From: Polaromonas sp.
GTDB lineage: Bacteria; Pseudomonadota; Gammaproteobacteria; Burkholderiales; Burkholderiaceae_C
Direction: 5' to 3'
DNA length: 64,000 nt
Assembly: GCF_016185115.1 (NCBI RefSeq)
Contig: NZ_JACPOF010000029.1
Span: 374,530-438,529 of the forward strand
Below, one piece after another: positions 5,374 through 43,960 of the stretch. The position numbers and the translations under genes are program-made. The notes under the pieces are model-generated. The model saw only the letters and a program-made list of their open reading frames with translations. It did no database searches and had not been told where the DNA came from. Position 1 is the stretch's first letter, and each line of letters starts with the position of its first letter.

Positions 5374-6444
<1,071 letters not shown>

Positions 6445-6545
6445 CCCCCACGGTTGCGCACAACGCGCAAGCGCCCTGCCCCCCGAGGGGGCCGCTGCGC
6501 CTGCGGTCTGGCAAAGCCAGTCCCGCGGCCCCTGCTTGCAAAGAG
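6445..6545 (+). repeat. Dispersed double-hairpin repeat, family 2, copy A
   Basis: About 100 bp starting CCCCCACGGTTGCGCAC and containing GCCCCCCGAGGGGGC (hairpin), GCCGCTGCGCCTGCGG and CTGGC-AAA-GCCAG (second hairpin), ending GCTTGCAAAGA. Three further copies exist at 39684, 42179 and, inverted, 43960-43864. This copy starts at the TAG stop of leuB in the same orientation as the gene. There is no T-tract after either hairpin, so it is not a canonical terminator. Confidence 0.85.
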
Positions 6546-6562
6546 GAGCGCCGTCGATTCGC

Positions 6563-6568
6563 TACAAT
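6563..6568 (+). promoter_or_regulatory. Putative -10 element of the asd leader
   Basis: TACAAT placed 6 bp before the leader-peptide ATG at 6575. A good -35 at standard spacing is not obvious; TTGCAA at 6536 is 21 bp away. If used, the transcript would start almost at the ATG, giving a nearly leaderless ORF. Confidence 0.4.
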
Positions 6569-6574
6569 AGAGCC

Positions 6575-6679
6575 ATGTTTAAAAACCCCGCACCCGTGAG
6601 CTTTGTCGCCGCTTCGCGCGCGACCAGCGCTGCGCCGGTTTTTAGCCAGATCACCAAAACGACCACCATTAAGGGCTAG
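6575..6679 (+). CDS. Putative asd leader peptide (Thr/Lys/Ile-rich)
   Basis: A 34-codon ORF absent from the ORF track: MFKNPAPVSFVAASRATS..., ending in ITKTTTIKG. The last ten residues hold four Thr, two Ile and two Lys codons, which are the end products of the aspartate family whose common enzyme Asd is encoded 80 bp downstream. This is the arrangement of a transcription-attenuation leader, as known for the E. coli thr operon. The ACG-ACC-ACC codons lie inside a possible hairpin, and a GC stem plus a T-rich stretch follows (6703-6738). Function is inferred; translation is not shown. Confidence 0.55.
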   Translation: MFKNPAPVSFVAASRATSAAPVFSQITKTTTIKG

Positions 6680-6682
6680 CAA

Positions 6683-6738
6683 GCCTGGTTCGTCGTGCCC
6701 TGCCGGCTCGATGAGCCGGGCCAAAAAGCCTTATTTTT
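6683..6738 (+). promoter_or_regulatory. Possible attenuator hairpins before asd
   Basis: CCGGCTC-GAT-GAGCCGG (6703-6719) is a perfect 7-bp stem, followed after 11 nt by TTATTTTT. An alternative pairing GCCTGG (6683) with CCGGGC (6716) would break this stem. The region around 6687-6696 can also pair with the leader's threonine codons at 6659-6667. The geometry is that of an attenuator, but the T-tract is not immediately adjacent to the stem, so its strength as a terminator is doubtful. Confidence 0.4.
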
Positions 6739-6759
6739 GACTTTTTGAAGGGCAACATC

Positions 6760-7899
6760 ATGAAACTCAAGGGAAATCTCACGGGACTCGTCGGCTGGCG
6801 GGGCATGGTCGGCTCGGTGCTGATCGACCGCATGCAGGCCGAAGGCGACTTCGACCTGATCGAGCCAGTCTTCTTTTCGACTTCCAATGCCGGCGGCAAG
6901 GCCCCTGCGCAGGCGAAGAACGAAAAGACCCTGAAGGATGCCTACGACATCGACGCCCTGAAGAAATGCGACGTGATCATCACCGCCCAGGGCGGCGACT
7001 ACACCTCTGAGGTCTTCCCCAAGCTGCGCGCCGCCGGCTGGGACGGCCACTGGATTGACGCCGCATCGACCTTGCGCATGAACAGCGATGCCATCATCGT
7101 GCTGGACCCGGTCAACCTGCCCGTCATCCAGAACGCCATGAGCAAGGGCGGCAAGAACTGGATTGGCGGCAACTGCACCGTCAGCTGCATGCTCATGGGC
7201 GTGGGCGCACTCTACAAGGCCGGTCTGGTCGAGTGGATGACCAGCATGACCTATCAGGCCGCTTCAGGCGGCGGCGCGCAGCACATGCGTGAACTGCTGA
7301 CCCAGTACGGCACGCTCAACAGTGAAGTGCGCGCCCTGCTGGACGACCCGAAGTCCGCCATCCTTGAAATCGACCGCCGCGTGCTGGCCAAACAGCAGTC
7401 GCTGACTGCCGACGAAACCGCCAACTTCGGCGTGCCACTGGGCGGCTCGCTGATCCCCTGGATCGACAAGGATCTGGGCGACGGCATGAGCAAGGAAGAA
7501 TGGAAAGGTGGCGCAGAAACCAACAAGATCCTGGGCCAGGGCGCTGGCTTTGGCACGGCGGCCACGCCGGTCGACGGCTTCTGCGTGCGCATAGGCGCCA
7601 TGCGTTGCCACAGCCAGGCATTGACCTTCAAACTGAAGAAGGACGTACCGCTGGCAGATATCGAGGCCATGATCGCCGCTGACAACCAGTGGGTCAAAGT
7701 GGTGCCCAACACGCGCGAAGCATCGATCAGGGACCTCACACCGGTGTCCGTCACGGGCACCATGCAGATTCCTGTCGGCCGCCTGCGCAAGCTGGCCATG
7801 GGCCCTGACTACCTGGGCGCATTTACGGTCGGCGATCAGCTTTTGTGGGGTGCGGCAGAACCGCTGCGCCGCATGCTGCGCATCCTGCTACAGGCCTGA
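6760..7899 (+). CDS. asd: Aspartate-semialdehyde dehydrogenase
   Basis: NADPH-dependent reduction of aspartyl phosphate, the branch-point step for Lys, Thr, Met, Ile and diaminopimelate. The start is ATG 6760 ([21 protein letters not shown]), preceded by GAAGGG; the track's earlier TTG at 6745 is unlikely. It has 379 residues as in the Gram-negative family, the nucleotide-binding GWRGMVGS at the N-terminus and the catalytic Cys in GGNCTVS (about 134). It follows a short Thr-rich leader ORF and, further upstream, the leu operon. Confidence 0.96.
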
Positions 7900-39683: not shown

Positions 39684-39785
39684 CTCCCACGGTCGTGCAC
39701 TTCGTGTCACTCCCTGCCCCCCGAGGGGGCCGCCAGCCTGCGGCCCGGCAAAGCCGGTTCCGCGGCTCGGACTTGCTTTAGGGCT
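39684..39785 (+). repeat. Dispersed double-hairpin repeat, family 2, copy B
   Basis: Starts CTCCCACGGTCGTGCAC directly after the lysS TAG and contains the CCCCCCGAGGGGG hairpin and CGGC-AAA-GCCG hairpin. It is more diverged toward its end (CGGACTTGCTTTA) than copies A and C. It ends about 8 bp before the next gene's ATG. Confidence 0.8.
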
Positions 39786-42178: not shown

Positions 42179-42250
42179 CCTGCTGCCCCCCGAGGGGGCC
42201 GCTGCGCCTGCGGCCTGGCAAAGCCAGTTCCGCGGCCCCTGCTTGCAAAG
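42179..42250 (+). repeat. Dispersed double-hairpin repeat, family 2, copy C (truncated 5' end)
   Basis: Begins within the CTGCCCCCCGAGG hairpin and continues through GCGGCCTGGCAAAGCCAG to GCTTGCAAAGAA. The CCCCCACGG start seen in other copies is missing or replaced by the adjacent palindromic element. It is antisense to the acpS/pdxJ transcript. Confidence 0.8.
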
Positions 42251-42275
42251 AAAATTTTTATCTTTGTAAAAGTCA

Positions 42276-43831: not shown

Positions 43832-43863
43832 AAGGTTCACCGTCACCCAACGAAGCGGGGCTT

Positions 43864-43960
43864 TCGCAAGCCAGGGCCGCGGAACTGGCTTTGCCAGGCC
43901 GCAGGCGCAGCGGCCCCCTCGGGGGGCAGGGAGCTACACGCAGTGAGCGACCGTGGGGGC
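43864..43960 (-). repeat. Dispersed double-hairpin repeat, family 2, copy D
   Basis: Read on the minus strand it begins CCCCCACGGTCGCTCAC just after the era TAG stop and contains both hairpins (GCCCCCCGAGGGGGC and CTGGC-AAA-GCCAG), ending near GCTTGCG. As with copies A and B, it is placed at the upstream gene's TAG stop and in the same orientation. Confidence 0.85.

Follow-up and report, generated by a model that had tools for sequence, protein, structure and literature searches.

We propose that asd is governed by a ribosome-mediated attenuator that tunes its expression to how fully tRNA-Thr, tRNA-Ile and tRNA-Lys are charged, a reading that we consider highly probable on evidence that is computational throughout. 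Such an attenuator had been put forward in an earlier note on this DNA, and it is supported by a conserved leader ORF, by selection for Thr, Ile and Lys in the tail of that ORF, and by competing RNA helices that have been kept in the family; these features, together with the fixed place of the conserved tail before an RNA motif, the -10 boxes of the leaders, and the fusion of the tail to LeuB in many genomes, are directly established. The tail occurs in two architectures, either at the end of a separate leader ORF (the separate class) or in frame at the C-terminus of LeuB (the fused class).

The leader and its promoter

The window analyzed, a 64,000-nucleotide stretch of a Polaromonas sp. genome, carries leuB, a 34-codon ORF and asd in that order (Table 1). 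The ORF had been described as a leader ending in ITKTTTIKG upstream of asd, and was found as described, with 80 nt separating it from asd. The leuB gene of the window has no Thr/Ile/Lys tail, and leuB homologues bear one in 51 of 129 family genomes. The closest named relative of the Asd encoded here is that of Polaromonas sp. YR568 (96% identical). A GC-rich intergenic repeat of about 100 bp (6444–6546) terminates just 5' of the -10 box of the leader; more copies lie at 42183–42251, 43861–43960 and 39712–39766 in the window, and the repeat is present at many other sites in the Polaromonas genome and in related genomes.

Table 1. Features of the leuB-asd region in the Polaromonas window
Feature	Position	Strand	Evidence or remark
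leuB, 3-isopropylmalate dehydrogenase, upstream gene	5374–6444	+	TIGR00169, 498 bits
TACAAT, probable -10 box of the leader and asd promoter	6563–6568	+	6 nt 5' of the leader ATG
Leader ORF MFKNPAPVSFVAASRATSAAPVFSQITKTTTIKG	6575–6679	+	ATG 6575, TAG 6677–6679, 34 codons plus stop; kept in genus and family
Putative control codons I-T-K-T-T-T-I-K	6650–6673	+	Tail composition across 126 family loci
Segment 1, Thr codons ACG ACC ACC	6659–6667	+	Can pair with 6687–6696
Small hairpin over the stop codon, GGCU 6674–6677 / AGCC 6682–6685	6674–6685	+	Paired cells 95% in A3, 93% in A2
Segment 2, 5' arm of the 13-bp antiterminator-like helix	6683–6695	+	Helix with 6709–6721, fold from the stop codon
Candidate anti-Shine-Dalgarno UGCCCU	6696–6701	+	Pairs with 6749–6754, fold from 6689
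Repressing hairpin CCGGCTC-GAT-GAGCCGG (6703–6709/6713–6719)	6703–6719	+	Fold starting at 6689; 85% of A3 cells paired
3' arm of the antiterminator-like helix	6709–6721	+	Fold; A3 covariation matched by 0 of 500 shuffles
AGGGCA, asd Shine-Dalgarno region, partner of 6696–6701	6749–6754	+	Predicted folds
asd, aspartate-semialdehyde dehydrogenase, presumed regulated gene	6760–7899	+	TIGR01745, 586.6 bits against a cut-off of 402.9

The TACAAT upstream of the leader ATG was missed in the earlier note, which had correctly described the ORF and its pairings, and it suggests that the mRNA of the leader is leaderless. An exact TACAAT or TATAAT lies 4–11 nt 5' of the ATG in 60 of 79 separate leaders, and a copy with one mismatch in 13 more, compared with none of 212 control ATGs (Fisher p 8e-46); the observed gaps between box and ATG range from 6 to 11 nt and are mainly 6–8 nt. 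TACAAT itself was found in 54 of the 79 separate leaders versus none of the 51 fused loci in the region searched. Because the box of the separate leaders sits just 5' of the ATG, transcription is expected to begin at the AUG or only a few bases from it, a start site predicted from the position of the box, and the 34-codon ORF is probably translated from a leaderless mRNA. Our first scan for promoters and terminators overlooked both the -10 box and the putative terminator, because it demanded a -35 box and a U-tract adjoining the stem.

Competing helices and regulatory output

The pairings proposed for the leader RNA could all be located in the window. The Thr codons of segment 1 pair with the proposed partner through ACGAC (6659–6663) with GTCGT (6692–6696) and ACC (6665–6667) with GGT (6687–6689); in alignment A3, the columns of this second pairing (13–15/37–39) show paired bases in 87% of cells and include two compensated pairs. 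The pairing of 6683–6688 with 6716–6721, which had been suggested to compete with the downstream stem, proved to be the outer part of a 13-bp helix, 6683–6695/6709–6721 (the 2:3 helix), which forms when the window RNA is folded from the stop codon onward. Folding from 6689, a start that mimics a terminating ribosome covering the beginning of segment 2, gives the repressing hairpin (the 3:4 hairpin) together with a candidate pairing of UGCCCU to the AGGGCA of the asd Shine-Dalgarno region, which the earlier note had missed. The 2:3 helix and the repressing hairpin are mutually exclusive, both using 6709–6719. The CCGGCTC/GAGCCGG stem is present as claimed; the T-rich tract does not adjoin it but lies in the 6730s–6740s, with about 14 nt between.

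The competing helices are kept in the family alignments. In the separate class (A3), paired cells make up 97.6% of the 2:3 helix, where compensated pairs occur, and 84.7% of the 3:4 hairpin; the covariation of each exceeded that of all 500 shuffles. In two fused subclasses (alignments A1 and A2), 96.7% and 98.1% of cells of the 2:3 helix are paired; covariation of both helices was not significant in the alignments of the fused subclasses, because these sequences barely vary. Mutually exclusive antiterminator and repressing helices are thus found in both classes, with significant covariation in the separate class only. The small hairpin over the stop codon accounts for the last codon of the tail being GGC or AGC.

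From these elements we infer ribosome stalling, a switch between the helices in vivo and the way in which asd is turned on or off. Transcription would start from the promoter near 6563, at or beside the leader AUG, and a ribosome would translate the 34-codon leader and, when Thr, Ile or Lys is short, stall on ITKTTTIK. The stalled ribosome would cover segment 1, leaving segment 2 free to pair with 6709–6721, and the resulting 2:3 helix would abolish the repressing hairpin and close the anti-Shine-Dalgarno in its loop, allowing asd to be expressed. When the amino acids are plentiful, the ribosome would reach the stop codon and cover the start of segment 2, the repressing hairpin would form, and asd would be turned off by termination, by occlusion of its Shine-Dalgarno sequence, or by both. 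In the fused genomes, which make up about half of those bearing the tail, the ribosome finishing LeuB would be the sensor, and the last codons of leuB would act as the control codons.

Termination, the output assumed in the earlier note, would call for a canonical U-tract terminator, which is present in part of the set only. U-tract terminators were found at 44 of 75 separate loci (19% in shuffles) and at 13 of 51 fused loci (15% in shuffles), so that a canonical terminator is not conserved across the set, while such terminators are enriched in the separate class. In the window, predicted pairing of the asd Shine-Dalgarno sequence is as good an actuator as the terminator. This raises a real, though not the favored, possibility that the sensing is as proposed and that the output is translational only, the Shine-Dalgarno sequence being sequestered or freed without any termination; this is a sub-version of the attenuator proposal, and the probabilities that we attach to the two overlap. 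Consistent with it are the pairing of UGCCCU with AGGGCA in the fold from 6689, the lack of conserved U-tracts, chiefly in the fused class, and the predicted energy of pairing between the Shine-Dalgarno sequence and the stretch after segment 2, which is -11.6 kcal/mol for a locus's own sequence, compared with -10.7 for swapped and -7.7 for shuffled sequences. However, base-by-base covariation between Shine-Dalgarno and anti-Shine-Dalgarno across the family was not significant (52 of 83 versus 50.3 expected), and the enrichment of U-tract terminators in the separate class argues against a purely translational switch. Thermodynamic folding of the stalled and terminated states predicted that the Shine-Dalgarno sequence opens on stalling at 55 loci, with the effect reversed at 17 and absent at 58.

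Conservation across the family

Within the genus, the tail and the hairpin are kept together with the motif GGTTCGTCGTGCC, as shown by searching 40 relatives and by a multiple alignment. We then examined the region upstream of asd across the family, in 129 genomes that represent roughly one per genus. A Thr/Ile/Lys-rich tail precedes asd in 103 of them (52 as a separate ORF, 51 in the leuB frame), and nearly all of these tails stop about 70–125 nt before asd. The earlier note had named loss of the ORF or its Thr codons from the leuB-asd regions of relatives as the result that would count against it; both are conserved, as are the position and the stop of the ORF. Among the 26 untailed loci are one with a fused tail that falls under the threshold used (L096), one whose leader is displaced by an inserted gene (L053), and several with degenerate tails (L143, L148 and L156).

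In nearly all tailed loci, the motif CCGGTTCGTC lies 4–9 nt 3' of the stop of the tail. Counted as present with at most two mismatches, it occurs in 87 of 103 tailed versus 6 of 26 untailed loci (p 5e-9), the sampled sequences being related and the counts therefore representing non-independent events. A covariance model trained only on separate leaders gave a single strong match in the genome of the window, at asd (E 6e-17; next match 0.0125), and it matched 48 of 61 family genomes searched, fused loci included, with one match per genome apart from a single weak exception. Conservation of the tail and of the RNA motif is far above chance.

The tail also occurs, in differently sequenced forms, in two further Burkholderiales families. 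In one of these (f32), a version with a Thr/Ile/Lys tail, the motif CGTCGTGCC and a GC-rich hairpin precedes asd at 19 of 30 loci, and in the other, a distant family (f14), a third version was found before asd in three genomes. The f14 loci (L029/L180, L191 and L214) have leaders such as RTTTIITKTVMKG and STTIITKKTKTTVLV before asd; one of these leaders contains codons for Met and Val, and the RNA motif is a different one. Outside f32, f14 and the family of the window (f1), the leuB-asd neighborhood is common and no tail was seen.

Amino acid composition of the tail

Across 126 family loci, positions -9 to -2 of the tail are occupied by Thr (43–52%), Lys (20–27%) and Ile (18–20%). Codons of Thr, Ile, Lys and Met start with A, as do all those of Asn and some of those of Ser and Arg. 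Among A-initial codons of the tail, Thr/Ile/Lys/Met outnumber Asn/Ser/Arg by 914 to 5, compared with 2622 to 578 in asd of the same genomes (odds ratio 40, with a p-value that the kinship of the sequences makes a guide only), demonstrating that the amino acids of the tail are selected. The Thr/Ile/Lys-rich composition remarked upon in the window is thus under strong selection across the family. The selected amino acids are the products made downstream of Asd, and Asn, which derives from aspartate but not via Asd, is nearly absent. The tail therefore has the makeup of a short translated ORF carrying codons for the end products of its pathway, with translation being certain only for tails that end LeuB.

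It is unlikely that the ribosome is stalled by an arrest peptide, that is, by a specific nascent chain acting upon a small molecule, as in TnaC, in place of starved control codons. The stop codon does adjoin the switch, 58 of 73 separate leaders of family f1 are 32–34 codons long despite a variable N-terminal half, and the penultimate residue of the tail is mainly Lys and the final one Gly or Ser, all of which an arrest peptide could explain. However, the stop-codon hairpin, through its GGC/AGC arm, accounts for the final Gly or Ser, the chain upstream of the tail is quite different in LeuB-fused tails, and the order of Thr, Ile and Lys is freely permuted among lineages (KTTTIKG, KTITKS, TTKTIKS, ITTTKKG), as is predicted by control codons and not by an arrest peptide.

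Somewhat less credible again is that only an RNA structure or a simple terminator lies between leuB and asd, and that the Thr/Ile/Lys frame is a by-product of an A-rich pairing sequence. A is recurrent at first codon positions, the ACC/GGT pairing and the stop-codon hairpin constrain some codons, and some of the codon conservation may stem from pairing. Against this, A-initial codons for Asn, Ser and Arg are nearly missing (5 of 919), third positions are free to vary (ACC, ACG and ACA; AAA and AAG; ATT and ATC), and in the fused class the frame belongs to an enzyme.

Two architectures of the tail

The reading of the tail as part of a separate leader is right for the window and incomplete for the family, since about half of the tail-bearing loci have the C-terminus of LeuB instead. 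The genomes of this kind, 51 of 129, lack a promoter like that of the separate leaders, and in them LeuB itself ends in the tail (...MGDAVVAAITKTITKG, then the stop codon). LeuB ends in ...REMGDAVVAAITKKTITG in Variovorax and Xenophilus, in ...AITKKTITKS in Ramlibacter, and in ...VRGASVKTITTITKS in Aquabacterium, and the TIGR00169 LeuB domain stops at residue 350 of 362–369, ahead of the tail. That the tail is simply a functional C-terminus of LeuB, serving stability or partner binding, cut off in some lineages and unrelated to asd, is very improbable, for although it belongs to LeuB in these genomes, in the separate class it lies in a different ORF, which has a promoter-like box of its own, it precedes the same RNA motif upstream of asd, and LeuB proteins that neighbor asd in the absence of the motif mostly do not have it.

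We consider it likely, at slightly lower confidence than the attenuator proposal itself, that a housekeeping enzyme can serve as an attenuator leader, with the last codons of leuB sensing on behalf of asd in dozens of Burkholderiales genera, such as Variovorax, Ramlibacter, Xenophilus and Aquabacterium, and with lineages switching between this arrangement and a separate leaderless leader that has its own promoter. A tree of 198 columns of Asd and LeuB is too weak for counting switches of architecture; parsimony placed 17 changes of the fused state on it, of which well-supported branches force 2.

Two variants of the separate form were also observed. At four loci (L015, L279, L283 and L290), an 11-codon leader, MNAIKTTGTKG or a close variant, lies just after the leuB stop, and such minimal leaders are a possible intermediate between the fused and separate forms. 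At two others (L053 and L281), the stretch from about 730 to 20 nt before asd holds the leader MYRHTTPSNPLRLSALGCVVRALSTKTTTIKG with its attenuator and, after these, a 182-aa ORF, with asd coming only then; the product of this ORF resembles an acetyltransferase, as judged by eye, and the switch probably governs a two-gene operon there.

Relation to known systems and biological significance

No Rfam family matched positions 6300–6900 at E values up to 5, and membership in the Thr_leader family (RF00506), a lysine riboswitch and a T-box were each rejected for want of a covariance-model match in this region. The lysine riboswitch and the T-box control amino-acid genes at the RNA level, while sensing at asd would go via a translated ORF. 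In the thrL attenuator of E. coli, a short ORF with Thr and Ile codons precedes aspartate-family genes and is followed by competing RNA helices. The asd leader shares this short ORF with Thr and Ile codons and the competing helices. Unlike thrL, which acts on thrABC, it would regulate asd, and it adds Lys codons and is often fused to LeuB; in addition, its 2:3 helix is built with the 3' arm of the repressing hairpin, and its U-tract is not constant.

In Sinorhizobium meliloti, the mRNA of the trpL leader (rnTrpL) has the ATG of its ORF as its 5' end (PMC7298713), and the -10 boxes predict the same start for the asd leader; the S. meliloti system differs in having Trp codons, in acting on trpE(G), and in belonging to an alphaproteobacterium. 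Leader peptides with control codons are likewise conserved before the cys operons of Mycobacterium, where there is no clear intrinsic terminator (PMC1262725). Unlike those leaders, the asd switch has conserved competing helices, and its leader can be the end of the upstream enzyme. We found no description of an attenuator at asd or leuB-asd in these bacteria in the open-access literature, in a search that included few subscription papers and is weak evidence on this point. These comparisons suggest that what is new here is a thrL-type attenuator that acts on asd, adds Lys, and is able to use the end of an enzyme as its leader.

Asd catalyzes the step common to the synthesis of Lys, Thr, Ile and Met, and its control by attenuation would be a so far undescribed control point in betaproteobacteria. 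Our results suggest that leaders are not limited to dedicated small ORFs, and that selection can make a sensor of the tail of a functioning enzyme; sensors of this kind would escape every search for short leader ORFs. The occurrence of one RNA switch in two architectures constitutes a natural experiment on the origins of attenuators, and on whether a ribosome ending the translation of a full gene can replace the ribosome of a leader.
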